Shown in pieces: positions 22,639 to 62,011 of a DNA stretch of 64,000 nucleotides. The DNA is from Trichopria drosophilae. Taxonomy: Eukaryota; Arthropoda; Insecta; Hymenoptera; Diapriidae. The stretch is taken from positions 66,741,501 to 66,805,500 of the forward strand of contig CM059584.1 in NCBI GenBank assembly GCA_030407085.1, written 5' to 3'. The notes under the pieces are model-generated. The model was not told the origin of the DNA. It saw only the letters and a list, made by a program, of their open reading frames with translations, and did no database searches. Within the stretch, counting starts at the first letter, position 1; every line of letters begins with the position of its first letter. Position numbers and translations under genes: made by a program.

Positions 22639-22676
22639 ATTTTTACGGGGAGACAGAAACGATTTGGTCCCCCCGG

Positions 22677-24426: not shown

Positions 24427-25146
24427 TGTTTTTTTTTTTTTTTTTTAAAACAAAAAAAAATAAACAAAAAAAATAATAATTTTATCACAAAAAAAATATA
24501 TATAAAAATAAATAAAATATTCTAAATTAATTCAAATAAAAAAAAAAATAAAAAATTTTATTTTTAAATCAATAATAAAAAAAAATTAAATTTAATAATA
24601 ACACCCACACAAAAAAAAATATTTAATAAAAAAAATTTAATTCACTTTAAACCAATTCAAATTATTAAATTCAATAATAATAAATCGAAAGAAAAAAATA
24701 ACAAAATTTAATTCACGGTTATCACACATTCAATTCAAATTAACACTGGGAGGGGAGGGGGAAATTTTCGAACACCATAAAATTTGAAAATCTTTAACTT
24801 AATTAATAATTTCACTTCCCAAATAATTAATAGAAGGAAAACTTATTTCCAATGTTAACAAGAAAACCTGAAAGAAAATATCTATTATTTCATTCACATA
24901 AAATTTTTCATATAATAATTGCACCATATATATCATATCACATATATTTAAATTTATATTACATATATTATATTACATTTATTAATAATTATGTATTGGG
25001 AAATGGGGTTCAGGGAATTCAGAGAAATACTGTTGTTCAAAAAATTTTCTGTTGGTCACGCGAGCCAACAACCGTTTCGCGAGACCGTTACACTTAAAAT
25101 TTTCTTTTCTTTTAATTTTTACTATTTCACTTTTTAATTTTCCGGG
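24427..25146 (-). other. Gypsy leader, A/T low complexity
   Basis: Very A-rich on the plus strand (24427-24720), then AT-rich. It lies between the primer-site candidate and gag and has no open frame of interest. A long AT-rich leader also precedes gag in the plus-strand Gypsy element at 29823-32026. Confidence 0.5.
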
Positions 25147-34006: not shown

Positions 34007-34036
34007 AGGAGGAAACCTATCCCGTCGGATGTTCAT

Positions 34037-37000: not shown

Positions 37001-37570
37001 TTTGCTGCAAAATTGGCTCCTAAATTTGTAGGACCGTATACAATTTCCAAACGATTAGGATCCAATGTTTATGAATTAAGAGATGGATCCGGGAAAAGTA
37101 TCGGTAAATGCCATGTAAATCAACTGAAGCCGTACCATGAAGAAGAAGATCCACCATTAGAAGATTCAATGCTTATTGAAAAAGATTCGATGAATCTAGC
37201 AGAAGAAGAAGACATCGATCAACAATCAACATTGCTTGAACCTGAACAAGAAGTGGTAGATAGGCCTCAAATCCTTGTACATGCGGACGTCCATAGGGGC
37301 GCTGAGGTCGAACGACGACCCCGCGGTAGGCCAAGAAAGATTAGGTTAGGCGACGCGACGCCCGTCAGTCTCGATAGAATACATAGGCGACCTGCGAAGT
37401 CGAAAAGGGCGAGCGGAGCGAACGTAGAGGTCTCTGTTAGTCCGTCTAATCAAGTCAATATGCCTAATCCTGCTGGTATACGTCCTCGTGGACGTCCTAG
37501 AAAGTATGGACGAGTAATTCCTTCTGTTTGTGTCCCACCTCATTATTATAACACGCGTAGTCGTAGATAA
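34037..37570 (+). pseudogene. pol: Gypsy pol with one in-frame TGA (protease, RT, RNase H, integrase)
   Basis: A single frame of ~1,177 codons interrupted only by TGA at 35648-35650 in RNase H (after SERECLAVL, a Trp position in the family). Protease site is FDPGAARTV (~25-35), with Pro in place of the usual Ser/Thr. RT has FCVDYRKVNALT and YLDD (~342-345). RNase H has TDASDTGLGVVL and TDHKSLEWL. Integrase has HHCC (HDVPTAGHLGNRKTC... CSVCQRMK), D,D,E core (TADAMGPF, HTDNGKAF, NPVERTNKT), a GPY/F-like segment, and two AT hooks (RRPRGRPRKIR, IRPRGRPRKYG) near the C terminus. Confidence 0.93.
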
Positions 37571-44662: not shown

Positions 44663-46196
44663 AGACGCTGTTAAAAGGAAATTTTCCGAACGTATCCTTC
44701 CGCGAATTCCTATACTATAAAGAACATAAATATAATATGTGGCTCCCGATTCGATCCTGAATTTTCATTTCTCTTATGATTTTGGAATAATAATAAAAAT
44801 CCTGTATTTTTCGCCGGCAGTATGCGTTCCAAAAGTACGCTGAATGATGTTCTTTTTGTTATATTTTCGTACTGGTTTTGGTTACATTTGTATATGTTAG
44901 AATGATATATTTTATTAAATAAATGACACTGACTTTCAATGATTGAATGAAAGAAATATCTTTATTATAATTGAGGGGCTGCGTGGAAAAACGGCCTAAT
45001 TCGACTTACCCAGATAGCAACGTGAGTTCACATAGGATGCATAATGACACTCACAAATGAGTCCAAAACGCATTTGTGAGACGCTATGTAAGTGCTATTT
45101 CAGTCCTCAAATGAGCTGACCATTGTCACTCATACGTGCGTTTTTCCTTTCACGAGAAATAAGCGCATGCGCAATAACGGTGGATTTTGATTGGCTGCTT
45201 CCAAAGTGCCCGACAAATTTAAAATTAAGTATTGTATTTACAGGGATTTCGCTTAACCATATGGCATATATGTAAATAATATATATTTTGTATAATTGTA
45301 AAATAGTTCTTTACGTTTTTAAGAGGCAGCTAAATACCGACTAGCTATTTTCATCAAATTCGCTTTTACTGACGCCGCCGTATTTACATTAAAAAATATA
45401 TGTTTTGGGTAGAATTTACAATGAATTACTATTTTACAGCTATTTAATGAATGTTGGTCGAATTTCAGTGACTTCAGCTCAGAAATGAGCGAGAATCCAG
45501 AAGAATAAATTTCGGAGGTAACATCGGGCTCTGTTTGACCACTACAAAAATGTATTCTCTCGAATTCTCGACCGTTTCTGAACCGATTTAGGTGAAATTT
45601 AACATATATTCATAAAAAAATTTGTGAAATAGATTTAAAATAGATTTGGGCATGAAAATCTATCTACTCTCTGCTTTTGCATTTTTTAGGTTGACAGTCA
45701 GTGACGTTATCAACGGAGTCGACTTAGCAGCCCCTAAAGCCAAATTCTTTATAGCATAGTAGTAGAATAGGGACAGACTGAAATCAGTTCCCGCCGCCGC
45801 CACCAGGCGTCACCACAGTCGCGGCGCTGTCGCAGCATGCGAGGTGGTAGATTCGTGAACTAATTCGCAGACTGGTTCGTAGACTAATTCGTGGTTTGAG
45901 TCGCGGACTGACTCGCGGGCCGATTCGCGGATTGATTCGCATTTTCGATTTACTGTTTAGTATGCGGGCATATAATTCAAGACTCTCTCATTGAGAAATC
46001 TGACCGTCGCTAATGAGGTCATTAAGATGATGCAAGACTTCGTGGACGGTCCCATTAAGTTTTCGAAGATTAATGCTGTAGCGTTATGCATATATCTTTC
46101 GATCTTTTAAATGTGCCCTGTTGGGAAATCTCTCTTTCAATATGCCGGTACCAATTTAATTCGGATGTTACATATATTTTTTGATGAATTGAAAGC

Positions 46197-47131
46197 GTAG
46201 ATTTCCATTAGTCTAAATACCAGCTTGAAGCGTAATCTCGTATATCCACGACCTGCTTTTTAAATCTCATACAAATTTTAAAAACCCACAATCAGGGCGT
46301 TGACCTCTCCCTTGTCATCGACCATCCTTGGGAAAACACATGTGAATTCCAAGCATATTAGATAATATATCGGGACCTATGTCTCTGTAGATTTCCATTA
46401 GTCTAAATACCAGCTTGAAGCGTAATCTCGTATATCGACGACCTACTTTTTAAATCTCATACAAATTTTAAAAACCCACAATCAGGGCGTTGACCTCTCC
46501 CTTGTCATCGACCATCCTTGGGAAAACACATGTGAATTCCAAGCATATTAGATAATATATCGGGACCTATGTCTCTGTAGATTTCCATTAGTCTAAATAC
46601 CAGCTTGAAGCGTAATCTCGTATATCGACGACCTACTTTTTAAATCTCATACAAATTTTAAAAACCCACAATCAGGGCGTTGACCTCTCCCTTGTCATCG
46701 ACCATCCTTGGGAAAACACATGTGAATTCCAAGCATATTAGATAATATATCGGGATCTATGTCTCTGTAGATTTCCATTAGTCTAAATACCAGCTTGAAG
46801 CGTAATCTCGTATATCGACGACTTACTTTTTAAATCTAACACAAATTTTAAAAACCAACAATCAGGGTGTTGACCTCTCTCTTATCGTCGACCATCCTTG
46901 GGAAAACACATGTGAATTCCAAGCATATTAGATAATATATCGGGACATATGTCTCTGTAGATTTCCATTAGTCTAAATACCAGCTTGAAGCGTAATCTCG
47001 TATATCGACGACTTACTTTTTAAATCTAACACAAATTTTAAAAACCAACAATCAGGGTGTTGACCTCTCCCGTATCATCGACCATCCTTGGGAAAACACA
47101 TGTGAATTCCATGCATATTAGATAATATATC
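46197..47131. repeat. 190-bp tandem repeat, five units (left arm)
   Basis: Units start GTAGATTTCCATTAGTC at 46197, 46387, 46577, 46767 and 46957, an exact 190-bp step. The right arm has only four. Tandem repeats in terminal regions are common in Polintons. Confidence 0.95.
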
Positions 47132-47308
47132 AACTCATTTTATTATAACGCATTTTCTGTTTTGGTACAATATCATGCAGGAAGGAAGGAAGATGAAGAA
47201 AATAGAGAAGATGTATTTAATAAATTTTATTTTTCACATTCATATTCATACATTACATAAATTTTTGTTGTTCACAATATTGTTATACATAAGAATATAA
47301 AATAGCTA

Positions 47309-48119
47309 TTAGATAAAATTTATATTTTCAATATCGTCAACTAATGCATCACTTTTAATTTGACAACTGATGCAATCTTTAATCATAGGCGGTTCACCAT
47401 CTATCATATCATAGCTTGATTCGAAATGTTTATAACATCGACGACATTCACGTATTTCAGGATGCATTTGCATAGCAGGTGGTAAGCAGGTCCATGCTTC
47501 TTCAATTTGTCGTTCAGCAAACATGCAGATGAAATCGATCGGTAGACATTCTATATCTTTTGTTTCCATCAATGCGAGACGTTTCACCTCGTAATAAATC
47601 CTTAATGAACGTTGAAGAGATGCAGGCTGTTCAAGTAGATTTCCCAATACCCACTTTTTAAGTATTTGCACATTTTCTTTGGTGCAAGTTCCATTAAGCG
47701 AATGATTTTCACACTTCTCCAACAATTCATATTGCTGCTCTTGCTTCAGTTTTTTTCAGAGATGGGCAGTCCAAAACGTCGAGATCAATAACATTTTCAG
47801 CGTTTAATATATCCTCCAACCAACATTTTTTATCGACTCCTTTTACATAAATTTTGTTGGCACATTTAATGATATCCTCCAAAGTCTCGTTTATAGCATC
47901 AAAGGGAACGTCGCCAGATTGCCATGGTAAGCCGTGGTAATTATGTATTAACCAGTTATTGACTCTTTTATAGTGTAGAGGTAACCATACCCATTGATAT
48001 GGCGCTTTAAACACACAAGTCTCAATTTCACCGACGAAAATATTCATTATAGACATTTCCTTCGGTATGAAGCGATTACTAGGCCCGCGGAATCCCTGAA
48101 CGTCTACAATGTATTCCAT
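47309..48119 (-). pseudogene. Conserved Polinton-associated zinc-ribbon protein, frame-broken (left copy)
   Basis: Two consecutive frames, 48119-47727 (130 aa, MEYIVDVQGFRGPSN...) and 47725-47309 (138 aa, Cys-rich: CENHSLNGTC, then CRRC...CISC), read as one ~270-residue protein broken by one base at an A7 run (about 47744-47750). The start resembles a family frequent in insect genomes beside Polinton capsid genes. The function is unknown; an RNase H/DEDD-like nuclease is a weak guess from the initial VDVQGF strand. The identical break in the right-arm copy means the arms were copied after it arose, or that a shift is programmed. Confidence 0.6.
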
Positions 48120-48206
48120 TTCGTATGATACTGATTCACTAGCAATTAAAGTATGACTATATTTTATTCATTAATTAGCGCATGCGCAATAATGGCTAAC
48201 CCCCTC

Positions 48207-49427
48207 TCAAACCAACTTCTTTACATTTCCACTTATGGGATTATATTCTACAATACGATCATGTAAAATTAAACAATAAGCAGAAGTGTTTGCAGGAAAA
48301 TTTTCTTTTGATTCAAATTCGAGCCGCACATCGACAGGTGCGTGTTTTAAAGCTTCATTCTGCTTAGAGCAATCAATAATGATTAACGGAGCTTTCTCTA
48401 AAAATATTGATTTATTCAATATAGGTTTACCATTAACATTTTTATTATAGTAACTAGCTTGAAAATTGATATACATATCGTATAATAAAGAAAATTGATT
48501 ATTTGCAATATCAAGGTTTAAATTACCATACGGATAATATTTTGAATTCAGAAATACTTTAACATTACTAATGTTACAGTGATCAAACAGGCTAGCATTT
48601 TTCGCCTTGTCATTTTTTCGTGCTGTTTGGTAGCCGATAATAATATATCGTGGCTTTTCTAGTTGTGTCGCTGTTTTCACGGACCACACGTGGGATGATG
48701 TTACCGGTAATAGAGGATATTCATAAAGTTCCCATGTACGGAAATTTAAAGATATGCAAAGGTCTTTTTCAATGAAACGTAACAGCTGTATCCTTTCCCT
48801 ATCAGCCAACGTCACATATGGAACTAACCATTCTATTTTATTCATCTCAATTTTGTAATGTTCTTCTGCATTTTGTATAATTGCATTATCATCATGTTTA
48901 GATCTTGTTAAAACAAGTTCGTGCTTCGCGTTTACAATTATCTTACGATAATCTTCCGCAAATCCGAGAATCATACTCAGAGGCATGATCACATAAAAAT
49001 AACCATTATCATTTGTTATCTTTAGATTTGAACCAGATATCCAACCTGCATAGATTAAAACGGGTTCATCATTTGGTGTGTAAGAAGGATACCCCTTCAT
49101 CAAGCTAGTAATACCAACATTTCTATTTCGATCAATTTCAACACCATTCAATTCATATCGCGCCTCATCAAATAAATGACAGATTGCGTTAGACGTTAGA
49201 TTAGTATTATTTGCTTTAGTTCCGTCGGTTTTCGTCAACCTTCCACTAACATGTATCAAACTTTTACACGGTAAAATACATAACTCTTGATTTTGCACAG
49301 CAATACGAATTTCATCATTTTTACCAAAAGAACTTGTATTGTAAGATTGATGTGAATGCAGCTCGTAATGAGCGACAGATTCGTCGAAAACGACTGAGTT
49401 TTGAATGCTGAGTATTGGATCCTCCAT
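48207..49427 (-). CDS. Probable major capsid protein (left copy)
   Basis: 406 residues from the ATG at 49427 (MEDPILSIQN). The open frame extends further upstream through a hydrophobic stretch with no better start. No stops. The gene sits next to the penton gene in the right arm and belongs to a family widespread in insect genomes with Polinton genes. Length and the all-beta, aromatic-rich pattern fit a double jelly-roll capsid subunit, but I infer this from context, not from a structural match. It differs from the right copy at about nine residues, all in the first half. Confidence 0.6.
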   Translation of the reverse strand: MEDPILSIQNSVVFDESVAHYELHSHQSYNTSSFGKNDEIRIAVQNQELCILPCKSLIHVSGRLTKTDGTKANNTNLTSNAICHLFDEARYELNGVEIDRNRNVGITSLMKGYPSYTPNDEPVLIYAGWISGSNLKITNDNGYFYVIMPLSMILGFAEDYRKIIVNAKHELVLTRSKHDDNAIIQNAEEHYKIEMNKIEWLVPYVTLADRERIQLLRFIEKDLCISLNFRTWELYEYPLLPVTSSHVWSVKTATQLEKPRYIIIGYQTARKNDKAKNASLFDHCNISNVKVFLNSKYYPYGNLNLDIANNQFSLLYDMYINFQASYYNKNVNGKPILNKSIFLEKAPLIIIDCSKQNEALKHAPVDVRLEFESKENFPANTSAYCLILHDRIVEYNPISGNVKKLV

Positions 49428-49614
49428 TATTGCTATTATGATAACGTGCAATAAGTATGCAAATACAACAACGGCAATAACAATTTTTATTATTATTATT
49501 CACTTTTTGATATTGTGATGATAATGTAACTTGAGTCCCAAGCTTTTCAGAAATAGAGCGTTCCGACGTGTTAACGTCTTGCGAATTTGACGACGACTTA
49601 TATGTTTTCTCCAT
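49321..49614 (-). other. Small overlapping frame, possible broken membrane-protein gene (left copy)
   Basis: 97 codons from MEKTYKSSSNSQDVN. The first ~45 residues are polar. At the AAT/AAA-rich run (about 49484-49505) the sequence of another frame becomes strongly hydrophobic (IVIAVVVFAYLLHVIIIAI) and continues into the capsid frame. A small membrane protein with one frame break is plausible, as is simple overlap. The right-arm counterpart is 56979-57272. Confidence 0.35.
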
Positions 49615-49659
49615 GATGGGTTATTATTATAGTAACTATTAAGGTTCTGGGGGTTTCTA

Positions 49660-49696
49660 CTATAAATGCCGATGCAGTCGAGTATTTTTCATCAGT
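49660..49696 (+). promoter_or_regulatory. Core promoter: TATAAAT ... TCAGT
   Basis: TATAAAT at 49661 and TCAGT at 49692 are 31 bp apart, ahead of the small plus-strand genes at 49712 and 49863. TCAGT is the arthropod initiator consensus. Confidence 0.45.
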
Positions 49697-49711
49697 AACG
49701 TGGCTCGATAT

Positions 49712-50053
49712 ATGTCTTCAAGAGATCTAAAAGTTAAAACTCGTGAATTAAAAAATAGAGTCGACATTTTTTTTAAAAATATACAAATATTAAAAGACGA
49801 TTTGAAACTTAGGTCTGAAATTAAAGTACTAGCAAGCCAAATCGAAAATTTATATATTACAAATGGCATCATCATCATCAGCAGCAGCAGCAGCTACAGC
49901 GGCAGCGCTAGTCAAAACACTAAATTCAACAACGAAATTTTTACCGACTATGAAACTGGCAGAACTGGACCCAGAAAAAGTATATGTCGTTTCAAAAATT
50001 CGGAGAGTATCAACAAAATTTGGAGAACGAATAAGCGTCGAGTTGAACAATGA
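49712..50053 (+). CDS. Possible small coiled-coil protein
   Basis: Starts MSSRDLKVKTRELKNRVDIF, Lys/Leu/Ile-rich with heptads over ~50 residues, then runs into the trinucleotide repeat used as the start of the next gene (49863). Only the first part looks protein-like. It overlaps the next frame by 191 bp. Confidence 0.3.
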   Translation: MSSRDLKVKTRELKNRVDIFFKNIQILKDDLKLRSEIKVLASQIENLYITNGIIIISSSSSYSGSASQNTKFNNEIFTDYETGRTGPRKSICRFKNSESINKIWRTNKRRVEQ

Positions 50054-50201
50054 AATCTCCTGTTTTCTTCCACCTCGGTACACAACACTTTTCCGAGATG
50101 CGATGGAGAGTTACCAAAGCATCGTCGAAAATAATCAGCTATACATGAAGTACATCGGAACAAAATTCAACAACATCGAATTTTTAACCGAATCCCACTA
50201 A
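49863..50201 (+). CDS. Conserved small Polinton-associated protein (possible OB-fold)
   Basis: 112 residues. A Ser/Ala run encoded by an ATC/AGC trinucleotide repeat (~3-15) is followed by a compact domain: LAELDPEKVYVVSKIRRVSTKFGERISVELNN..., then FLPPRYTTLF, and QLYMKYIGTKFNNIEFL at the end. The beta-rich pattern recalls single-strand DNA-binding OB folds, and similar genes occur in insect Polintons. That function is inference. It is the only clear plus-strand gene at the left edge of the core. Confidence 0.55.
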   Translation: MASSSSAAAAATAAALVKTLNSTTKFLPTMKLAELDPEKVYVVSKIRRVSTKFGERISVELNNEISCFLPPRYTTLFRDAMESYQSIVENNQLYMKYIGTKFNNIEFLTESH

Positions 50202-50303
50202 CAATGACGATGTCGAACGAAATTAAAGAATAGAAGGTATTATATATGGTAAGAAATATGTTTTACTAATTACATATTGTTTAATTTATATTTTATTAAT
50301 GCA

Positions 50304-50558
50304 TTATAATTTACATCTATTACTATTATTATCATCACAGCTTTCCGCTTGAAGCGAAACCGATGCACTCGAATCCGGATGATTAGCGGATATTTCATAC
50401 AGCGGCAACGTGACATCTTCGGGGGAGACCATTCTCGAATCAGCATTAATCCATGACCATAATTGGTGACTGGTCAAATCAGAGCTGTATGCTGCAGCAT
50501 CAGTCGCCAATGATGATGAAGAAGTCGGATCCAACAGACATCTGTAGGAACTTGCCAT
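50304..50558 (-). CDS. Unrecognised small reading frame
   Basis: 84 residues, Ser/Asp-rich with a C-terminal basic tail. No family recognised. A splice-acceptor-like TTCTTGTTGCAG lies just upstream (about 50576-50587), so it may be a terminal exon of the gene at 50697-51205. Confidence 0.25.
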   Translation of the reverse strand: MASSYRCLLDPTSSSSLATDAAAYSSDLTSHQLWSWINADSRMVSPEDVTLPLYEISANHPDSSASVSLQAESCDDNNSNRCKL

Positions 50559-50696
50559 TATCTGCGAACGGAATCTGCAACAAGAAAATGAAATACATTT
50601 TAAATGAATGTTTATAATAAATATTAATGTTAATTATTGCTAAAACAAACAAATATATATATATTTATTATTAAAAATTAAAAAGTGTTTTTATAT

Positions 50697-51205
50697 ACCT
50701 TCATCAATAAGAAATTTGATATGCTCCGAGATGCGGTTTAACAGCTCCCGATCAAGATCCACAGCAGCCAGGACAGCGTTACGCTCCTCGACCACTGCAG
50801 CAATATACAGTCGAGCCAGGCACTGAGCTCACCTGAGAATTTCGCCAGCATGCTGCCGCTATATCCCCACTCTCGAACGCAGCCTTTCTCCGACGATACA
50901 CGAACCGGCCGAAGGTAATGGTGGGGCTAAGCGCGGTGGGGACGGTCGAGAGTGGGGATATAGCGGCAGCATGCTGGCGAAATTCTCAGGTGAGCTCAGT
51001 GTCTGGCTCGACTGTACTTCTCCTCACGGTGGAGAGAATTTTTAACATCTTCCGCCCACATTCGCAAGTAGTTTGAGCGATTGTAGAAGTATTGTTCCTC
51101 ACAATCATGCCCTTCTTCATGCAGCTCCATGAGGGCAGCTGCTCCATCCACGCAATATTTTAGCCGATCTCGCAGCTTTAAAATATTCTCCCGCAGCTCT
51201 TGCAT
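50697..51205 (-). pseudogene. Helical small protein gene split by a palindrome
   Basis: The N-terminal part (51205-51014) reads MQELRENILKLRDRLKY... through an amphipathic helix with HEEGHDCEEQ. A 205-bp near-perfect palindrome (50809-51013) interrupts it. The same coding sense resumes (YIAAVVEERNAVLAAVDLD) and ends near 50697. The protein would be mostly alpha-helical. Function unknown. Confidence 0.45.
50809..51013. mobile_element. 205-bp foldback insertion
   Basis: 68-bp arms (start AGTCGAGCCAGGCACTG, inverse ending 51013) around a ~69-bp loop. The left and right arms are almost identical. It lies inside a gene of the Polinton-like core. Either a foldback MITE or a palindromic repair product. 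Confidence 0.85.
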
Positions 51206-51325
51206 TTTTTGAAATGCATTTTAAATATTATGTTCTTCAAGGATAATTTTAGTCTCCAGCCACTGATGTAACATACCCAATTGGCTGATCATGTTGGCTT
51301 TTGACGAATCTCTGAAAATATCCCT

Positions 51326-51335
51326 CTATTTATAC
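51326..51335 (-). promoter_or_regulatory. TATA-like box (TATAAATAG)
   Basis: The minus strand reads GTATAAATAG, about 120 bp upstream of the helical protein gene starting at 51205. Same motif as ahead of the integrase. Confidence 0.35.
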
Positions 51336-51430
51336 GTAAAACTAGTCACGTGTCTATAACGATTAATGCTTGTTGGCAATTCTAACTAATCACGATCTAG
51401 AACACTCCCATTTGTTTCACCATATTAGTC

Positions 51431-52363
51431 TTAAAGTATTATATCTTCCTTGTCAATCCAGCTGTTATGCCTATCTTCAAAGCCCAACCATTTAACAAAC
51501 ACTTTAGAACCTTTATCACGTAGAATTTTTTCAATAAGATAAACGTCTGGATTTTTAGTACGTTGCAGTTCAAATTCGTAGAATCCACCTGATATTGCGT
51601 TTCCTGCATTGTCTTCTAGTAAATATGTTACTGGACTCGTTTTCTTAACTTTTGCTATTGAAAATATTTCAGTCGTCCAATTTGGTGTATATCCCTTTTC
51701 AAATATATGTTTGAATTTACTAATGCGTACTTGTTGACCTACTTTAAACTTTGGATGAATCTTTTCGTTCACAATTACATTGTACACACGTTCCAATAAT
51801 TCTTTTTCATTGTCTTTATTAACATCTTGCGGCTTCATTTTAATAGTACGATGTGTGCTATTGTTATAATCATTAACCAAGTCTGGTAAGATATGGAGCC
51901 ATTGATAATTACCATGAAGGCTAAACTGTGGCCACATTTTATTTTTCAAAGTACGATTAAAGCGTTCGCAAATTGATGCTTTTAGATTACTGTATGTAGA
52001 ATATAAATTGATGTCATGTTTTTTCATTAAATTTGAAAATTTTGAATTATAAAATTCTTTTCCATGGTCGGTATGTAGATTCTTTGGAATTCGACCCATT
52101 TTAAATATCGATTTCATGGCAGCTGTGACGTCATCGCCAGTCTTTCTTTTTACTGGGCAGGCCCATGCATACTTAGAGAATACATCGATGACAGTTAACA
52201 AGTATTTGTAACCCTTATTTTCATCTGCATATGGAATCATTTCTACAAGATCAGCTTGCCAAGTTTCATCTAATCCGCGAATATCTACTCGCCGTCTTGT
52301 ATAATTTTTTCTTGCTAGTTTATGAAGCTCCTTCACGACTTCTTTCTTCTCTTTAGAAGTCAT
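51431..52363 (-). CDS. Polinton integrase with chromodomain
   Basis: 310 residues, intact. The retroviral-type (RVE) catalytic core has D38 (WQADLVEM), D99 (LHTDHGKEF) and E133 (ICERFNRT). A C-terminal chromodomain starts at ~275 (YLIEKILRDKGSKVFVKWLGFEDRHNSWIDKEDII), which would bind histone marks and guide insertion. No HHCC domain precedes the core, as in many Polinton integrases. A TATA-like box (CATAAATAG) lies ~65 bp upstream. Encoded in the core near the left arm, on the minus strand with the next three genes. Confidence 0.92.
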   Translation of the reverse strand: MTSKEKKEVVKELHKLARKNYTRRRVDIRGLDETWQADLVEMIPYADENKGYKYLLTVIDVFSKYAWACPVKRKTGDDVTAAMKSIFKMGRIPKNLHTDHGKEFYNSKFSNLMKKHDINLYSTYSNLKASICERFNRTLKNKMWPQFSLHGNYQWLHILPDLVNDYNNSTHRTIKMKPQDVNKDNEKELLERVYNVIVNEKIHPKFKVGQQVRISKFKHIFEKGYTPNWTTEIFSIAKVKKTSPVTYLLEDNAGNAISGGFYEFELQRTKNPDVYLIEKILRDKGSKVFVKWLGFEDRHNSWIDKEDIIL

Positions 52364-52425
52364 TGTTGTTAAATAGATAAGGCAACGTCTTGATTAAAAC
52401 TGTTGGGTGGATTGTTGCAGATAGT

Positions 52426-52435
52426 CTATTTATGC
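52426..52435 (-). promoter_or_regulatory. TATA-like box of the integrase gene
   Basis: The minus strand reads GCATAAATAG, followed about 30 bp later by ACAGTTT, an initiator-like site. This fits the spacing seen at other promoters of the element. Confidence 0.4.
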
Positions 52436-52451
52436 ACATTTTTCATACCAA

Positions 52452-53135
52452 CTAATTAATTCTCCCGTAAACAACATCAGTTATTCCATTAATCTTCTTT
52501 ATGGCTTCTCTGTTTTTATTGACATTTTGTTCTAGGAGAAAAATTAATTTCTTAGCATCGTGAGCTACAGTACTACTCTCCCTTATGTCATAGGTATGTT
52601 TTTTCAAGTCTCCTTCTATATTGGCAATATCTACAGTAAGACTATCAATCAGACCATTATTTTTATTCAAATCATCTTTATTTTTCTTTACTTCCCGCTC
52701 TAAGACAGTGATATTATTCGTCAGATTGCTAAGAGTGTAATTATTTTTATTTAAATTATTGTTATGTTTAGTTATTTCCTGATGTAATTCAATAGTATAA
52801 TTTCCAAAATCTGAAGATATAATCCGCCTCTTTTCTATTTCATTGTAATTTTTATTGATATCTTGTTGCATTTTATTTATACTTTTTTCAAAATATTCAA
52901 TCTTCTCATTATTTTTAATTACACCTTTACACAGTTCATCTATTTGCTGTTTAATATCGTGAATAGATGTGTGGAACATTCTCAAAGTAATGGCATCATC
53001 CGAATCTGTCGGAATTCCGATATTACATAACTTTCTTTTCTTAAAATCATAAGAACCGTCTGTAGCAATTTTGACACTTTGAAATACTTGCTTCCGTGCT
53101 CGTTGAGACGAACGTCCAAATACATCGATGCTCAT
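52452..53135 (-). CDS. Coiled-coil (fibre-like) structural protein
   Basis: 227 residues from the ATG at 53135 (MSIDVFGRSSQRARKQ). A short conserved head ends in LCNIGIPTDSDDAITLRMF, followed by a long Asn/Lys/Glu/Ile-rich coiled coil (~60-220). The head-plus-shaft layout is like viral fibre or trimeric spike proteins and recurs in insect Polintons. The role is inference. It follows the DUF8207-type gene with a small overlap. Confidence 0.55.
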   Translation of the reverse strand: MSIDVFGRSSQRARKQVFQSVKIATDGSYDFKKRKLCNIGIPTDSDDAITLRMFHTSIHDIKQQIDELCKGVIKNNEKIEYFEKSINKMQQDINKNYNEIEKRRIISSDFGNYTIELHQEITKHNNNLNKNNYTLSNLTNNITVLEREVKKNKDDLNKNNGLIDSLTVDIANIEGDLKKHTYDIRESSTVAHDAKKLIFLLEQNVNKNREAIKKINGITDVVYGRIN

Positions 53136-53162
53136 TATGATACTGACGTAATTATCACGCAA

Positions 53163-54086
53163 TTAATAGATTATATTAGCTTCGCGCAACTCTTCAATAA
53201 TCGATAAAATTTCATTCGAAAGACTTGAATTACCAGCAGCTTGCGATGCTATTAGAAGGCGCAAACGATCGACAAGTACATTTGGATCATCCCAATGCAC
53301 GTAGTCAATTTTGTGGTTTTGTTCAACAATCATGTATTCAGGCAAATTACCACCCTTTTTCGGAACATCTTTGAACATTTCCTTGATATAGTTTCGATAC
53401 TTGTGGGAAGCATTATACCGAATAGGTTTTTGCTGATTCCAATCTTTCCTATGTGCATTAGTTAAGGTTAGTATACTTTTGTAATTGTTTAAATCAGACT
53501 GTTGGATTATAGCTATATCAGCTTTTTTCTTAAATAATAACTCTAGCAAACCTTCAGTAATAGCAAATTTATTATCCTTAACAATGACATTTTTATTCTT
53601 AAATTCTATTGTCGAATCACCGATTCTTGTAGTACCACCTTCTATGCGAACACCATAAATTGTATCAATAATATCACTTTTCTCATGAATATTTCTCACC
53701 AGTAAAGTTAGAAACTTATTTGATAACCTTTCTTCAGTATGATATGTAGGTGTTTTAATATCACTGCTAAATGTCTGCTCTAAAGGGGTATTATATCCAT
53801 CAAGCATATCATCATCATCATCAAAATCGTTAACATCATTAATTTCTATGCTATCTGCTACTTTATCCTGTACGTTTATATCATCAATCGCATTTTTGTT
53901 GATTGACATTGTTGTAGCGTCTGCTATTTTTTCCAATGGACTTATCAGAGGTTTGAGCGTTTCACTTATCGCAAGGTCATGCGTTTCTTTACCCATTTTT
54001 AATAATCGATGTTTTCGGCGAATAGATTCGCTAGCTTTGACAATTTGACGTAAAACGTCTTGCTGCTGTTTAAGTGGAGAAGACAT
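53163..54086 (-). CDS. DUF8207-type Polinton protein
   Basis: 307 residues from the ATG at 54086 (MSSPLKQQQDVLRQIV). N-terminal helical region, an acidic low-complexity centre (NDFDDDDDML), then a conserved C-terminal domain: YGVRIEGGTTRIGDSTIEF, ITEGLLELLFKK, and YNASHKYRNYIKEMF. I recognise this as the domain called DUF8207, common in arthropod genomes next to Polinton genes. Its function is not established. Intact. TCAGTG about 27-32 bp upstream of the ATG could be the initiator. Confidence 0.65.
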   Translation of the reverse strand: MSSPLKQQQDVLRQIVKASESIRRKHRLLKMGKETHDLAISETLKPLISPLEKIADATTMSINKNAIDDINVQDKVADSIEINDVNDFDDDDDMLDGYNTPLEQTFSSDIKTPTYHTEERLSNKFLTLLVRNIHEKSDIIDTIYGVRIEGGTTRIGDSTIEFKNKNVIVKDNKFAITEGLLELLFKKKADIAIIQQSDLNNYKSILTLTNAHRKDWNQQKPIRYNASHKYRNYIKEMFKDVPKKGGNLPEYMIVEQNHKIDYVHWDDPNVLVDRLRLLIASQAAGNSSLSNEILSIIEELREANIIY

Positions 54087-54121
54087 GTTAATGCATGCAA
54101 GTCTCACTCTGCACTGACTTA

Positions 54122-54860
54122 TTACAACATTTTTTGTTTCTTCTTAAAATCATTTATGCTTATAAAACAATCAAAACCTTTTCGATACCTTCCCTCTTCT
54201 ATTTCACTATCTTTATCGATTACAATAAATCCATGCTTTTCTGTCCAACATTGTGTGCATATATCTTTAAAAGTGTTGTATGGCATATCTGTATTTACAT
54301 GATCATTATAGACGTGCTTAAGATTCATTTCATCCTGTCTAAAGAGAATCAAAAAGTTTACGTTATCTCGAATAAGATGCTTGGGAACACGAGCGTACGT
54401 TTGACTGAGATAAAAGCAATCGACGCAATTATGTCTACCCATACAAAAGAAGGATCTAATGTTATCTTGCTTCTCGCACGCAACATCATCAAATATAATA
54501 ATAGAGTTTGGTCTGGCCTCGGCGGGTGGTACTACCTGTTCATTATCGTGAAAAGGAAAGTATCCTATACCCTCCACAGAGTCGAGTAAGTTTTGTAAAA
54601 ATTGATATTTCGGTTGATTTAACGATTTCGAATATACATATATATTTTCAAACTTTAATCCATTCTGATCGATGATTAGACTGAGTAGTGTATTTGTTTT
54701 TCCGCAATTAGACGGGCCACAGAAAAGTGCACGTATATATTTGGCAGCAACTCCCCATGTCGTTTATGATTAGTTGCATTATTTTGTACAGACGATGTTA
54801 AATCATCAAAATTGATGATTGGGATTTTTGTTGGTTGTTTATGAAATCGCATTTTGATAA
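54122..54860 (-). pseudogene. Packaging ATPase (FtsK/HerA-A32 type), frame-broken near its start
   Basis: Walker A GPSNCGKT (about 54695-54720) and Walker B SIIIFDD (about 54490-54510) are in one uninterrupted frame from about 54760 to 54122. The frame starting at the upstream ATG (about 54852) shifts by one near a G4 run at about 54757-54762, before the Walker A, so the N-terminal ~30 codons are out of frame. A32-type ATPases pump DNA into capsids. The C-terminal half (GRHNCVDCFYLSQTY, HLIRDNVNFL, YNDHVNTDM) is conserved and intact. It is divergent from the PLA2 gene at 54946. Confidence 0.85.
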
Positions 54861-54876
54861 TAACTGGTCATAAAAG

Positions 54877-54907
54877 TATAAGTAGCGCCTTTATATGTAA
54901 TGTCAGT
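54877..54907 (+). promoter_or_regulatory. Core promoter: TATAAG ... TCAGT
   Basis: TATAAG at 54877 and TCAGTC at 54903 are 26 bp apart, about 40 bp upstream of the ATG at 54946 of the PLA2 gene. It lies in the short divergent gap between ATPase and PLA2. Confidence 0.5.
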
Positions 54908-54945
54908 CATTAACTGTTTGTTACTTGAATGATGCACATCTTAAA

Positions 54946-55803
54946 ATGATTACATATGTGGGTAAAAACAAGAAGCAAAGACGTATAAAGAGTGGGAAAG
55001 GATTGGTCAATTCTTTAATTAATAAATTACCGGTAGAACTTCATATACCCGGTTATCAGTACTGCGGACCTGGTACAAAATTAAAGCAACGATTAGCAAG
55101 AGGGGACTCTTGGATAAATCCGTTAGATAAGGCTTGTAAGGAACACGATATTGCTTATTCCAAAACTCGTGAAAATCCCACCGGTAGAAGCGAGGCTGAT
55201 CGAATATTAGCGGAGCAGGCTTGAAAGCGAGTTTTAGCAAAAGACGCAAGCATTGCAGAAAAGGCGGCAGCTTGGGGTGTTGCAAACACAATGAAACTAA
55301 AAAGTAAATTAGGCATGGGACTGGAAAGGAAGAAGAAAAAAGTGCCAAAAAAGAAAACAACATCATTGAACAACATTATTGCGGCTGCTAAAATGTCAAT
55401 GTCACCAAGTAATAATGTTCAAAGTGTTATATCGAGCGCTTTGAAAGGGGCACGTAAAGCCGTAAAAGAAGCAGGTGGTAAACGATTCATTCAAAAAACT
55501 CGACAGCTATCGATACCTTCAAAGGTTGGAGGATTCTTACCTATCCTAGCACCCATATTTGCTGGATTAAGTGCTGTAGGTGCATTAGCCGGTGGCGCAG
55601 CGGGTATAACCAAGGCTGTTAATGATGCAAAAGCTGCTCAAAAGCAGTTACATGAAAGTGAGAGGCATAATCGTGCTATGGAGACAATAGCTATAGGTAA
55701 AGGGTTATATCTTAAACCTTATAAAAATGGTCTAGGTTTGAAATTAAAACCATATAAAACGGGTTCAGGTGTTAAATGTATAAAAAATCGAAAAAACTTG
55801 TAA
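54946..55803 (+). pseudogene. Parvovirus-type phospholipase A2 fused to a membrane-active tail, one in-frame TGA
   Basis: One frame of ~286 codons. The PLA2 domain (about residues 25-90) has the calcium loop YQYCGPGTKL and the catalytic box DKACKEHDIAYS, as in parvovirus VP1, which opens endosomal membranes during entry. TGA at 55222-55224 stops the frame after ILAEQA. The rest has a basic stretch (KKKKVPKKK), a Gly/Ala-rich hydrophobic segment (about 55528-55610) and a Lys/Tyr/Gly-repeat end (GLYLKPYKNGLGLKLKPYK). The tail is like adenovirus-type pVI/pX cement proteins in layout. Start chosen at the first ATG; a TTG is in frame upstream. Confidence 0.78.
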
Positions 55804-56197
55804 AGCTACCGCATCGAGCACTCACCGATGTAGATATATTAAGATATTCGAAAGAAGCTGGAATTCCGAATTTTAGAGGTGTCTTTATGCGTAATAATTT
55901 ACCAAAGAATCCCCAAGTTAATGAATGTGCAGTCATAAATTTAGATGATGCAAGCGGTCCGGGACACATTGGGTAGCATATCGAAAACGTGGTTCTAAAG
56001 TCGTTTATTTTGACAGCTTTGGAAACCTTAGCCCACCTGCTGAATTGGGAAAATATCTCGGTGTAGGTAGCATTATGTATAACTGTGAAAAATTTCAAGA
56101 CTATGCCACTTTTGATTGTGGACATTTATGTCTCAAATTTTTATGCAATCAGCTGTTTTGTCCAAACAAGTATCAGTTATATAAATATATCGCATAA
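55776..56197 (+). pseudogene. Adenain-like cysteine protease, frame-broken
   Basis: From the ATG at 55776 (overlapping the previous gene by 28 bp) the frame holds the N-terminal half (IPNFRGVFMRNNLPKN...CAVINLDD) up to the catalytic His (GPGH). A two-base gain at about 55967-55972 then puts a TAG at 55974. In the next frame the remaining conserved parts follow: the acidic residue in VYFDSFG and the catalytic Cys in DCGHLCLKF, ending at TAA 56197. Adenain-type proteases mature Polinton/adenovirus capsid proteins. His, Asp and Cys are all present, but in two frames. Confidence 0.85.
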
Positions 56198-56215
56198 AAT
56201 ATTATGATAATCAGT
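56178..56215 (+). promoter_or_regulatory. Core promoter: TATATAAAT ... TCAGT
   Basis: TATATAAAT at 56178 and TCAGTG at 56211 are 33 bp apart, 23 bp before the ATG of the penton gene (56234). A second TCAGT lies at 56229. Confidence 0.45.
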
Positions 56216-56233
56216 GTAATTTGAACAATCAGT

Positions 56234-56920
56234 ATGAATGATTCTTCCACGTTGACGCTCACGGGGCAGTCTTCAGTATTGGAAGCGCAATACTTTCCAC
56301 CTATTGAACTTTCACCGCAGAAGAATTATGAATTGGGTTTGATAGAACTTTTAACGTTTAATTCAATCCCAAATGTTGACGTTAATAATAAATTTCATAT
56401 TGGTAACCATGACATTATTGTGCCTATCGGTAGCTATGAAATTGAGGATATAGCAGAATATATTAGAAACAAGCTGTCGGAGTATAGTGATATTACGCTA
56501 GATATAAAACCGAATAATAATACACTACGTAGTGAAATCAGATCTAATCGAGACATTGATTTTACACCAATCGATTCGATTGGACGAACATTGGGCTTTA
56601 ATAGACGAATTTTGGAAGCAAACAAGTTGCACATTTCAGATTTGCCAGTAACAATAATTAAAGTTAATGCACTTCGCGTGGAATGCAATATAACTACAGG
56701 CGCTTATATTAATAGCAGTAGAGCGCACACGATTCATGAATTTTTTCCTACTGTGGCGCCCGGATATAAGATTGTGGAAGTGCCGAATCACGTCATTTAC
56801 CTACCTATTGCCGTCAGATTAATAGATCATATTCAATTGCGTATTGTTGATCAGAACGGTGAATTGGTGAATTTTCGTGGTGAAACAATTACAATACGAC
56901 TCCATCTTAAATCTACGTAA
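56234..56920 (+). CDS. Probable penton/minor capsid protein
   Basis: 228 residues, intact. Key stretches: YFPPIELSPQKNYELGLIE, ELLTFNSIPNVD, GSYEIEDIAEYIRNKL, DSIGRTLGFNRR, ITTGAYINSSRAHTIHEFFP, and IDHIQLRIVDQNGELVNFRG. This all-beta protein is widespread in insect Polintons and matches by size and position the single jelly-roll penton. I call it penton by family and context; no structure was compared. It lies just left of the right arm and is present only once. Confidence 0.65.
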   Translation: MNDSSTLTLTGQSSVLEAQYFPPIELSPQKNYELGLIELLTFNSIPNVDVNNKFHIGNHDIIVPIGSYEIEDIAEYIRNKLSEYSDITLDIKPNNNTLRSEIRSNRDIDFTPIDSIGRTLGFNRRILEANKLHISDLPVTIIKVNALRVECNITTGAYINSSRAHTIHEFFPTVAPGYKIVEVPNHVIYLPIAVRLIDHIQLRIVDQNGELVNFRGETITIRLHLKST

Positions 56921-56978
56921 CAATGGGTATTATGTACAATGGTCAGAACCTTAATAGTTACTATAATAATAACCCATC

Positions 56979-57272
56979 ATGGAGAAAACATATCAGTCGT
57001 CGTCAAATTCGCAAGACGTTAACACGTCGGAACGCTCTATTTCTGAAAAGCTTGGGACTCAAGTTACATTATCATCACAATATCAAAAAGTGAAAAATAA
57101 TAATAAAAATTGTTATTGCCGTTGTTGTATTTGCATACTTATTGCACGTTATCATAATAGCAATAATGGAGGATCCAATACTCAGCATTCAAAACCCAGT
57201 CGTTTTCGACGAATCTGTCGCTCATTACGAGCTGCATTCACATCAATCTTACAATACAAGTTCTTTTGGTAA
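56979..57272 (+). other. Small overlapping frame (right copy)
   Basis: MEKTYQSSSNSQDVN..., counterpart of 49321-49614 with three residue differences. A polar N-terminal part; the hydrophobic run lies in another frame from about 57103 and continues into the capsid frame. It overlaps the capsid gene start by 107 bp. Confidence 0.35.
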
Positions 57273-58386
57273 AAATGATGAAATTCGTATTGCTGTGCAA
57301 AATCGAGATTTACGTATTTTACCGTGTAAAAGTTTGATACATGTTAGTGGAAGGTTGACGAAAACCGACGGAACTAAAGCAAATAATACTAATCGAACGT
57401 CTAACGCAATCTGTCATTTATTTGATGAGGCGCGATATGAATTGAATGGTGTTGAAATTGATCGAAATAGAAATGTTGGTATTACTAGCTTGATGAAGGG
57501 GTATCCTTCTTACACACCAAATGATGAACCCGTTTTAATCAATGCAGGTTGGATATCTAGTTCAAATCTGAAGATAACAAATGATAATGGTTATTTTTAT
57601 GTGATCATGCCTCTGAGTATGATTCTCGGATTTGCGGAAGATTATCGTAAGATAATTGTAAACGCGAAGCACGAACTTGTTTTAACAAGATCTAAACATG
57701 ATGATAATGCAATTATACAAAATGCAGAAGAACATTACAAAATTGAGATGAATAAAATAGAATGGTTAGTTCCATATGTGACGTTGGCTGATAGGGAAAG
57801 GACACAGCTGTTACGTTTCATTGAAAAAGACCTTTGCATATCTTTAAATTTCCGTACATGGGAACTTTATGAATATCCTCTATTACCGGTAACATCATCC
57901 CACGTGTGGTCCGTGAAAACAGCGACACAACTAGAAAAGCCACGATATATTATTATCGGCTACCAAACAGCACGAAAAAATGACAAGGCGAAAAATGCTA
58001 GCCTGTTTGATCACTGTAACATTAGTAATGTTAAAGTATTTCTGAATTCAAAATATTATCCGTATGGTAATTTAAACCTTGATATTGCAAATAATCAATT
58101 TTCTTTATTATACGATATGTATATCAATTTTCAAGCTAGTTACTATAATAAAAATGTTAATGGTAAACCTATATTGAATAAATCAATATTTTTAGAGAAA
58201 GCTCCGTTAATCATTATTGATTGCTCTAAGCAGAATGAAGCTTTAAAACACGCACCTGTCGATGTGCGGCTCGAATTTGAATCAAAAGAAAATTTTCCTG
58301 CAAACACTTCTGCTTATTGTTTAATTTTACATGATCGTATTGTAGAATATAATCCCATAAGTGGAAATGTAAAGAAGTTGGTTTGA
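57166..58386 (+). CDS. Probable major capsid protein (right copy)
   Basis: 406 residues from ATG 57166, intact. Compared with the left copy it has P for S, RDLR for QELC, R for L, N for Y, S for G and T for I, all before about residue 215; the rest is identical. Two full copies with opposite orientation would double gene dose. Capsid assignment is by family recognition and neighbours (penton, protease, ATPase), as explained for the left copy. Confidence 0.6.
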   Translation: MEDPILSIQNPVVFDESVAHYELHSHQSYNTSSFGKNDEIRIAVQNRDLRILPCKSLIHVSGRLTKTDGTKANNTNRTSNAICHLFDEARYELNGVEIDRNRNVGITSLMKGYPSYTPNDEPVLINAGWISSSNLKITNDNGYFYVIMPLSMILGFAEDYRKIIVNAKHELVLTRSKHDDNAIIQNAEEHYKIEMNKIEWLVPYVTLADRERTQLLRFIEKDLCISLNFRTWELYEYPLLPVTSSHVWSVKTATQLEKPRYIIIGYQTARKNDKAKNASLFDHCNISNVKVFLNSKYYPYGNLNLDIANNQFSLLYDMYINFQASYYNKNVNGKPILNKSIFLEKAPLIIIDCSKQNEALKHAPVDVRLEFESKENFPANTSAYCLILHDRIVEYNPISGNVKKLV

Positions 58387-58424
58387 GAGGGGGTTAGCCA
58401 TTATTGCGCATGCGCTAATTAATG

Positions 58425-58463
58425 AATAAAATATAGTCATACTTTAATTGCTAGTGAATCAGT
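58425..58463 (+). promoter_or_regulatory. Core promoter: AATAAAATA ... TCAGT
   Basis: AATAAAATA at 58425 and TCAGT at 58459 are 34 bp apart, 11 bp before the ATG at 58474. The mirrored site lies in the left arm near 48130-48168. Confidence 0.35.
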
Positions 58464-58473
58464 ATCATACGAA

Positions 58474-59284
58474 ATGGAATACATTGTAGACGTTCAGGGA
58501 TTCCGCGGGCCTAGTAATCGCTTCATACCGAAGGAAATGTCTATAATGAATATTTTCGTCGGTGAAATTGAGACTTGTGTGTTTAAAGCGCCATATCAAT
58601 GGGTATGGTTACCTCTACACTATAAAAGAGTCAATAACTGGTTAATACATAATTACCACGGCTTACCATGGCAATCTGGCGACGTTCCCTTTGATGCTAT
58701 AAACGAGACTTTGGAGGATATCATTAAATGTGCCAACAAAATTTATGTAAAAGGAGTCGATAAAAAATGTTGGTTGGAGGATATATTAAACGCTGAAAAT
58801 GTTATTGATCTCGACGTTTTGGACTGCCCATCTCTGAAAAAAACTGAAGCAAGAGCAGCAATATGAATTGTTGGAGAAGTGTGAAAATCATTCGCTTAAT
58901 GGAACTTGCACCAAAGAAAATGTGCAAATACTTAAAAAGTGGGTATTGGGAAATCTACTTGAACAGCCTGCATCTCTTCAACGTTCATTAAGGATTTATT
59001 ACGAGGTGAAACGTCTCGCATTGATGGAAACAAAAGATATAGAATGTCTACCGATCGATTTCATCTGCATGTTTGCTGAACGACAAATTGAAGAAGCATG
59101 GACCTGCTTACCACCTGCTATGCAAATGCATCCTGAAATACGTGAATGTCGTCGATGTTATAAACATTTCGAATCAAGCTATGATATGATAGATGGTGAA
59201 CCGCCTATGATTAAAGATTGCATCAGTTGTCAAATTAAAAGTGATGCATTAGTTGACGATATTGAAAATATAAATTTTATCTAA
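58474..59284 (+). pseudogene. Conserved zinc-ribbon protein, frame-broken (right copy)
   Basis: 58474-58866 (130 aa) then 58868-59284 (138 aa), identical in sequence to the left copy, with the same one-base break at the A7 run 58837-58843. In the second frame the coding sense is open back to the A7 run, which shows one original gene. The final Cys pairs (CRRC and CISC, ~25 residues apart) look like a zinc ribbon. Confidence 0.6.
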
Positions 59285-59461
59285 TAGCTATTTTATATTC
59301 TTATGTATAACAATATTGTGAACAACAAAAATTTATGTAATGTATGAATATGAATGTGAAAAATAAAATTTATTAAATACATCTTCTCTATTTTCTTCAT
59401 CTTCCTTCCTTCCTGCATGATATTGTACCAAAACAGAAAATGCGTTATAATAAAATGAGTT

Positions 59462-60206
59462 GATATATTATCTAATATGCATGGAATTCACATGTGTTTT
59501 CCCAAGGATGGTCGATGATACGGGAGAGGTCAACACCCTGATTGTTGGTTTTTAAAATTTGTGTTAGATTTAAAAAGTAAGTCGTCGATATACGAGATTA
59601 CGCTTCAAGCTGGTATTTAGACTAATGGAAATCTACAGAGACATATGTCCCGATATATTATCTAATATGCTTGGAATTCACATGTGTTTTCCCAAGGATG
59701 GTCGACGATAAGAGAGAGGTGAACACCCTGATTGTTGGTTTTTAAAATTTGTGTTAGATTTAAAAAGTAAGTCGTCGATATACGAGATTACGCTTCAAGC
59801 TGGTATTTAGACTAATGGAAATCTACAGAGACATAGATCCCGATATATTATCTAATATGCTTGGAATTCACATGTGTTTTCCCAAGGATGGTCGATGACA
59901 AGGGAGAGGTCAACGCCCTGATTGTGGGTTTTTAAAATTTGTATGAGATTTAAAAAGTAGGTCGTCGATATACGAGATTACGCTTCAAGCTGGTATTTAG
60001 ACTAATGGAAATCTACAGAGACATAGGTCCCGATATATTATCTAATATGCTTGGAATTCACATGTGTTTTCCCAAGGATGGTCGATGACAAGGGAGAGGT
60101 CAACGCCCTGATTGTGGGTTTTTAAAATTTGTATGAGATTTAAAAAGCAGGTCGTGGATATACGAGATTACGCTTCAAGCTGGTATTTAGCCTAATGGAA
60201 ATCTAC
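59462..60206. repeat. 190-bp tandem repeat, four units (right arm)
   Basis: Units end with GACTAATGGAAATCTAC at 59636, 59826, 60016 and 60206, an exact 190-bp step. One unit fewer than in the left arm. Confidence 0.95.
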
Positions 60207-60486
60207 GCTTTCAATTCATCAAAAAATATATGTAACATCCGAATTAGATTGGTACCGGCATATTGAAAGAGAGATTTCCCAACAGGGCACATTTAAAAGA
60301 TCGAAAGATATATGCATAACGCTACAGCATTAATCTTCGATAACTTAATGGGACCGTCCACGAAGTCTTGCGTCATCTTAATGACCTCATTAGCGACGGT
60401 CAGATTTCCCAATGAGAGAGTCTTGAATTATATACCCGCATACTAAACAGTAAATCAAAAATGCGAATCAATCCGCGAATCGGCCC

Positions 60487-61057
60487 TACTAATAACGCGA
60501 ATGTCTATACTATGTATGATATTATCTACATACAGCCATGGTGTAAAGATTTACCAATAAAAACAAAATACATAATTAAATTCTGTATTTATTACATATA
60601 CTTTAATTTTATAAACAAATAAATAAATATATTTCATTGTTAAAAATTATTTAAAACCACTATCCCTTTAAAATATACATATTTCTTTATATAAAAAATA
60701 AGTGAAATTTGTTACTTGTGGGTTTTCAGGGTCGCAGATCGTGATTCTGATAACGAATTAGTGATCAATGTATAACAAAATTCCCATAAACTAAGTTTCT
60801 ACCGGATTCCTAAATTACTGTTCAAAATTTTGTCTGCGAATTGAAATTTTTTAAAAATTGACCTCGGGTTCGTAATTTACGACTGAAAACTTCATAGAAA
60901 TTTTTTTTACTTTTTAAATCATGTAATGTAGTTAGAATTACAGGAATTTTGAAAAACGGTTAAATGCAGATTGCATTTTATTATATCAACAGTATTCCTA
61001 TTAATAACAATTTTAAAAGTTTCACCACAGTAACGATCATCATATTATACATGCTAT
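60487..61057. other. Right-arm-only AT-rich segment
   Basis: Begins right after CGCGAATCGGCCC and ends before TATAAAGAATTTGGC, where the arms match again. It has no open frame of interest and no clear inverted ends. The left arm has a different ~165-bp GC-rich segment at the same place (about 45757-45922). Confidence 0.7.
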
Positions 61058-62011
61058 AAAGAATTTGGCTTTAGGGGCTGCTAAGTCGACTCCGTTGATA
61101 ACGTCACTGACTGTCAACCTAAAAATTGCAAAAGCAGAGAATAGATAGATTTTCATGCCCAAATCTATTTTAAATCTATTTCACAAATTTTTTTATGAAT
61201 ATATGTTAAATTTCACCTAAATCGGTTCAGAAACGGTCGAGAATTCGAGAGAATACATTTTTGTAGTGGTCAAACAGAGCCCGATGTTACCTCCGAAATT
61301 TATTCTTCTGGATTCTCGCTCATTTCTGAGCTGAAGTCACTGAAATTCGACCAACATTCATAAAATAGCTGTAAAATAGTAATTCATTGTAAATTCTACC
61401 CAAAACATATATTTTTTAATGTAAATACGGCGGCGTCAGTAAAAGCGAATTTGATGAAAATAGCTAGTCGGTATTTAGCTGCCTCTTAAAAACGTAAAGA
61501 ACTATTTTACAATTATACAAAATATATATTATTTACATATATGCCATATGGTTAAGCGAAATCCCTGTAAATACAATACTTAATTTTAAATTTGTCGGGC
61601 ACTTTGGAAGCAGCCAATCAAAATCCACCGTTATTGCGCATGCGCTTATTTCTCGTGAAAGGAAAAACGCACGTATGAGTGACAATGGTCAGCTCATTTG
61701 AGGACTCAAATAGCACTCACATAGCGTCTCACAAATGCGTTTTGGACTCATTTGTGAGTGTCATTATGCATCCTATGTGAACTCACGTTGCTATCTGGGT
61801 AAGTCGAATTAGGCCGTTTTTCCACGCAGCCCCTCAATTATAATAAAGATATTTCTTTCATTCAATCATTGAAAGTCAGTGTCATTTATTTAATAAAATA
61901 TATCATTCTAACATATACAAATGTAACCAAAACCAGTACGAAAATATAACAAAGAACATCATTCAACGTACTTTCGGAACGCATACTGCCGGCGAAAAAT
62001 ACAGGATTTTT

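Follow-up and report, generated by a model that had tools for sequence, protein, structure and literature searches.

An inverted copy of the capsid end has probably replaced the polymerase end of a decaying Maverick/adintovirus provirus in Trichopria drosophilae

The window analyzed here is a 64,000-nucleotide stretch of the genome of the hymenopteran Trichopria drosophilae (GCA_030407085.1, contig CM059584.1; C3:66741501–66805500), which lies inside a 147 Mb contig of the 936 Mb assembly that was searched. Between positions 44795 and 62011, the window contains an element of the Maverick/Polinton and adintovirus type that is flanked by two large inverted arms and has no recognizable protein-primed polymerase B (PolB). 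This structure very probably arose through a local chromosomal rearrangement of a decaying, PolB-bearing provirus, in which the PolB end was overwritten by the inverted capsid end. The element is of a known kind, its copy here is rearranged and dead, and the structure in the assembly is largely explained. Other copies in the genome (sisters) are named below by contig and position.

The inverted pair is confirmed at 44795–49649 and 56944–62011. As the first-pass annotation of this DNA had proposed, each arm contains a complete capsid gene, which is open over 406 codons. The second conserved gene that it had placed in each arm is present in both, but is frameshifted in both. The features of the arms are as follows.

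44795–49649, minus strand: left arm, host flank and an inverted copy of the element's capsid end, with a breakpoint at each edge
44795–44977, unstranded: piece of host repeat A; the left arm has its outer breakpoint at 44795
45009–45757, unstranded: host repeat B, positions 1 to ~749, broken off by the element terminus at 45758
45758–45762, plus strand: element terminus AGTAG, a terminal motif that matches the sisters
46197–47131, unstranded: tandem 190-nt units, 4.9 copies
47309–48167, minus strand: second arm gene, left, with a frameshift identical to that of the right copy
48207–49427, minus strand: left major capsid gene, 98% identical to the right copy
49640–49649, unstranded: inner junction, a 10-nt imperfect microhomology, TAAGGT(T/G)CTG, between PolB-side and capsid-end sequence
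56944–62011, plus strand: right arm, which joins the core as in the sisters and has an outward flank common to two other repeat A copies
57166–58386, plus strand: right major capsid gene, PF21738 double jelly roll
58426–59284, plus strand: second arm gene, right, frameshifted, no Pfam family
59462–60206, unstranded: tandem 190-nt units, 3.9 copies
60487–61050, minus strand: ~20 nt of filler, then repeat B from ~1310; 159 bp of the element terminal repeat are gone
61051–62011, minus strand: host repeats B and A, the partner of 44795–45757

With the tandem units aligned in register, the inner arms differ at 13 of 3263 nucleotides, and the outer 963 nt are 99.1% identical between the arms. The left arm has one 190-nt unit more than the right, and its positions 45758–45916 are without a partner on the right side, where 60487–61050 occupies that place. 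A genome search with 44700–45800 as the query returned 70 matches (the best 40 of 1398 candidates were scored), and among these matches repeats A and B occur together in the two window arms only. The arms are element termini only in part, and the outermost 0.96 kb of each consists of two host repeats. A reading of the arms as viral terminal repeats was rejected, as three sisters have gene-free terminal inverted repeats (TIRs) of ~1.1 kb and the arms include host repeats. A reading of the outer 0.96 kb as a separate transposon ending at 44795 was likewise dropped, as the flanks of two other A copies indicate a breakpoint there.

The edges of the two arms differ in kind. Six B copies extend beyond the switch point in the left arm, with sequence that is found in the right arm, and therefore the element terminus at 45758 interrupts B. 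On the right, repeat B from 60487–61050 runs on into the B of 61051–61801. In the two A copies that were read, the 20 bp of outward flank are common to the right side of the window and unlike the left. Thus, both edges of the right arm look native, and those of the left arm look like breakpoints. A copied-in inverted tract would show this pattern, which would place the event in the chromosome.

At the inner edge of the left arm, the sisters match the window core from 49640 on, and leftward of this position they head to PolB; the PolB-side version of the 10-nt junction motif is seen in two sisters. When a 141-base query across the junction was compared with the genome, 40 places were scored of 527 candidates, and the match extends over the full length at the window alone. 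The other 39 cover only the core side, from base 49640. The inner junction is taken as single-copy, because a shared junction would outscore these 39 core-side matches.

The PolB that is characteristic of Maverick/Polinton elements is lacking in the window copy, in agreement with the first-pass annotation. None was found by Pfam among the 18 open reading frames (ORFs) scanned, and blastn and tblastn searches of the 64 kb with sister PolB returned nothing beyond a 31-amino-acid match and chance-like short matches. This best protein match (50351–50443, E 0.003) was considered as a PolB remnant and rejected, as it sits in a stretch that the sisters carry beside PolB. In contrast, PolB sequence is present at 8 of the 10 sister loci at which the PolB side is readable. 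It covers almost the entire queried length at C1:129.5, C4:49.9, C4:53.4 and C1:112.9 Mb, is internally deleted at C2:166.3 Mb, and is otherwise represented by a C-terminal half as read (C3:67.45 Mb), the first 224 nt only (C1:120.09 Mb) or an N-terminal part (C5:100.06 Mb). It was not found at C60, an internally deleted element, or on the near-palindromic contig C187. Among 14 fixed-offset stretches of seven further copies, a usable PolB side was obtained for two copies, both counted among the 10: L036, which covers the whole left terminus and the beginning of PolB, and L042, with part of PolB. Stretches L031, L035, L041 and L043 contain terminal-repeat sequence on the capsid side. At C4:49.9 Mb, the PolB gene is read as two ORFs of 525 and 733 codons. 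The second matches PF03175 (E 1.3e-30), and the first, N-terminal ORF (525 amino acids), in which an OTU-like domain was expected, has no Pfam match at E 0.01. Because of the two ORFs and the missing match in the first, this gene is not called intact on its sequence.

For five sister loci, sequence from both sides was compared: C1:129.5, C4:49.9, C4:53.4, C2:166.3 and C60. The first three start with AGTAG, have matching 6-bp target-site duplications (TSDs; TATATG, AACGGA and TGTCTG) and have gene-free TIRs of ~1.07–1.13 kb; the C4:49.9 Mb copy spans ~16.6 kb. By these features, the three are classed as ordinary Maverick/adintovirus proviruses. Both termini are present at C2:166.3 Mb, without a target duplication, and a complete pair of termini is not shown by C60. 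In C60 (L013, L014), internal deletions that include the PolB region are observed, and its capsid gene is nearly identical to those of the other sisters, yet 41–46 sites differ over the whole compared stretch. In the window copy, the left terminus is present, the right one is without 159 bp of the repeat, and no target duplication was seen by eye at the two ends. The family is large: 102 capsid matches were scored of 957 candidates, and an internal stop is listed in 23 of the 102.

These comparisons bear on the two origins that the first-pass annotation had offered. One was a distinct lineage whose terminal repeats bear genes and whose polymerase is borrowed; the absence of PolB from the window copy would speak for it. 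This lineage was rejected, since the genome search gave the junction a single time and PolB sequence is present at 8 of 10 readable sister loci. It fails the refutation test that the first-pass annotation had itself set: other copies in the genome have short gene-free TIRs, 6-bp TSDs and PolB sequence around a core collinear with that of the window. With host DNA within the arms and broken core genes as well, such a lineage is exceedingly improbable. The other origin, replacement of one end by an inverted copy of the other with removal of PolB, is supported, with ~0.96 kb of host flank also copied.

Mutations in the two arms bear on the timing of the duplication. Over 2287 sites, 18 substitutions are shared by both arms and absent from seven mutually agreeing sisters, and the changes private to one arm number 5 on the left and 6 on the right. 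The frameshift in the second gene is found in both arms and is absent from nine compared stretches of eight loci; at C2:166.3 Mb, this gene is uninterrupted over 285 codons. In the core, 78 substitutions over 5517 sites are private to the window, as are the ATPase frameshift (relative to six of six sisters) and the protease frameshift (relative to all five sisters that cover this gene). The capsid genes of the two arms differ by eight nonsynonymous and one synonymous change, and without selection 74–79% would be nonsynonymous, so the differences between these copies are as expected in the absence of selection. The private capsid changes shared by the arms comprise six nonsynonymous and three synonymous. 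Together, this pattern fits a provirus in which decay had set in before the duplication of its end. The insect mutation rate is near 3.5e-9 per site per generation, and at this rate the 11 differences over 2518 bp would date the arm duplication to roughly 0.6 million generations ago.

The same mutations weigh on the possibility that the provirus was integrated already without PolB, as a symmetric defective genome produced by protein-primed viral replication. Adenovirus terminal duplications provide a model for such genomes, and the microhomologous junction, the element-type AGTAG terminus on the left and the large inverted structures at three other copies would all be compatible with this origin. 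However, the inverted tract takes in host repeats beyond the element terminus, the junction was found once, the frameshift and the 18 shared substitutions are older than the duplication, and a target duplication was unseen by eye at the two ends. This origin is considered quite improbable.

For the preferred reading, a local rearrangement in the chromosome, the following course is proposed. A PolB-bearing Maverick/adintovirus provirus would have inserted itself in a host repeat B copy and started to decay. During the later repair of a chromosomal break, its PolB end would have been swapped for the inverted capsid end together with ~0.96 kb of adjoining host DNA. One boundary of the copied tract falls at an imperfect microhomology of 10 nt, as would be predicted if repair went through microhomology-mediated template switching or break-induced replication. 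The outcome would be a defective, non-autonomous fossil. We infer from the features above that copying ran from right to left, that a repair pathway of this kind was used, that PolB was formerly present and that the event followed integration.

Several observations weigh against this rearrangement. In the left arm, the element terminus is joined to B at ~749, and in the right arm 159 bp of the element are missing and B is joined at ~1310 via the filler and is unbroken at 749. Since these joins differ, the right arm as it stands is not the literal template, and the proposal calls for a further event or a different template, for instance an allele that lacks the insertion. Later repair from such an allele would explain the right end, as a guess; alternatively, since the letters beside the element on this side read AGTAG, the right end may have lost internal sequence and kept its extreme terminus. 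The assignment of the native flank comes from two A copies and 20 bp only. The outer TIR segment diverges more than the inner arms (6/280 versus the register-corrected 13/3263; p 0.0026, in a post hoc comparison picked after the data were seen). Two of the 10 readable sister loci (C60 and C187) are also without PolB. In addition, the six sister capsid genes, in 15 pairs, show no nonsynonymous and 0–2 synonymous differences, too few changes for more than a weak control. Finally, the structure could be an assembly artefact, for example a fold-back or a haplotype join at a heterozygous insertion. It is complex, with three junctions, repeat B is both interrupted and uninterrupted, like two alleles, and in C187, a small contig, the inverted halves are long and near-identical. 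Against an artefact, the arms have 5 and 6 substitutions of their own and are further distinguished by one tandem unit and a large indel, they end at different flanks on the two sides, and the locus lies inside the 147 Mb contig; this explanation is judged unlikely.

Between the arms, the core of the element contains the following features.

49640–56943, unstranded: core; 49640–50442 and 51418–56943 are collinear with the sisters at ~97% identity
51431–52393, minus strand: integrase (rve), with a sub-threshold C-terminal chromodomain
52452–53162, minus strand: ORF of 236 amino acids with sub-threshold coiled-coil-type matches only
53163–54143, minus strand: ORF of 326 amino acids, no Pfam family
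54122–54867, minus strand: packaging ATPase (Pox_A32), frameshifted
54901–55224, plus strand: ORF with a phospholipase A2 (PLA2) domain, PF08398
55225–55803, plus strand: ORF with sub-threshold similarity to adenovirus protein X
55776–56197, plus strand: putative adenain-like protease, in two frameshifted pieces
56225–56920, plus strand: putative penton of 231 amino acids, labeled by position

The core gene set named in the first-pass annotation is recovered by Pfam for the integrase, ATPase and PLA2, but the ATPase and protease are frameshifted, and the penton and protease are without a Pfam match. The integrase matches PF00665 (rve; E 3.5e-17), as in Maverick/Polinton elements, with a weak match to a C-terminal chromodomain (E 1.3e-4; 22.2 bits, below the 25.1 cutoff). 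Despite its frameshift, the ATPase scores above the cutoff for PF04665 (E 1.2e-06), consistent with the FtsK/A32 packaging ATPases of these elements. The protease pieces have no matches in Pfam, and their tentative adenain-like label comes from their motifs; no Pfam match was obtained for the candidate single jelly roll penton either. An accessory region of the window (50443–51417) is mostly without a blastn match in the sister stretches, where just its first 48–63 nt match, and contains a 74-nt inverted repeat.

The right capsid protein matches the double-jelly-roll family PF21738 (E 1.4e-117), as expected of a Maverick/Polinton major capsid, and has 2421 homologues at E up to 0.001. Among the best 120 of these, identity is 57–70% and the visible names are hymenopteran. 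The hexon of a Megastigmus wasp adintovirus is matched by BLASTP at E 9.4e-164 and 59% identity. A scan of viral contigs using the capsid protein gave no matches, and a search for relatives of the second arm gene returned 10, all unnamed.

In its capsid homology, integrase, ATPase and PLA2, and in the PolB, TIRs and 6-bp TSDs of its sisters, the element resembles hymenopteran Maverick/Polinton elements and adintoviruses; it differs from them in that the window copy is without PolB, has an inverted second capsid end and has three frameshifted genes. The core gene list for such elements is given in part of PMC4028283. Mavericks make up a notable share of braconid and pteromalid wasp genomes, according to part of PMC6035795, and Drosophila-associated adintoviruses, one with PolB and integrase, appear in part of PMC8363768. 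In the available part of PMC11071296, which defines adintoviruses by a hexon that BLASTP can recognize, an integrase with a C-terminal chromodomain and a PolB with an N-terminal OTU-like domain, duplicate hexon ORFs are described in some sequences. These elements and the window copy share the presence of two hexon genes, but the second one in the window stems from an inverted duplication that is recent and lies in a chromosomal copy undergoing decay. According to the available part of PMC8097293, in which TIRs and 6-bp TSDs serve as criteria, the majority of vertebrate Mavericks are defective. The window copy is likewise defective, whereas an inverted-arm derivative goes unmentioned in that part.

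Other inverted structures are present in the family. When the 102 scored capsid genes are compared by position, inverted pairs within 20 kb occur at three places: in the window, on C187 and at C1:112.9 Mb. At C1:112931500–112939500 (L029), a copy with PolB has a truncated terminal repeat, to which an inverted capsid end is joined. Of the 34.8 kb contig C187 (L009–L011), 30 kb were read, and much of this is near-palindromic; it contains two inverted half-elements flanked by reverse transcriptase sequence and may have arisen as a fold-back in the assembly. The element at C2:166.29–166.32 Mb (L018 2750–7401; L020 193–4858) has its ends within a 4.65 kb inverted repeat that is 99.3% identical. This repeat is mostly host flank, with ~3.6 kb beyond the element terminus, and includes an ankyrin-repeat ORF. 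Elsewhere in the window, a satellite array of 21 copies of a 147-nt unit occupies 1–3147, and long ORFs that by eye resemble Gypsy-type retroelements are seen at 19323–24444 and 32027–37570.

The near-identical sisters point to a very numerous and recently active Maverick family in this genome. The analysis removes a candidate polymerase-less lineage and indicates that a fossil rearrangement can mimic one. A doubtful, tentative extension is that the family repeatedly provokes inverted duplication of its own ends and host flank, for example by break repair via its long terminal repeats; the structures at C2:166.3, C187 and C1:112.9 Mb are leads toward such a common mechanism, not proof of it. 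If the extension is true, Mavericks would repeatedly give rise to palindromes and to copies of host genes, and if the other inverted structures are real, this family would offer a natural setting in which to study the seeding of palindromes by long terminal repeats.

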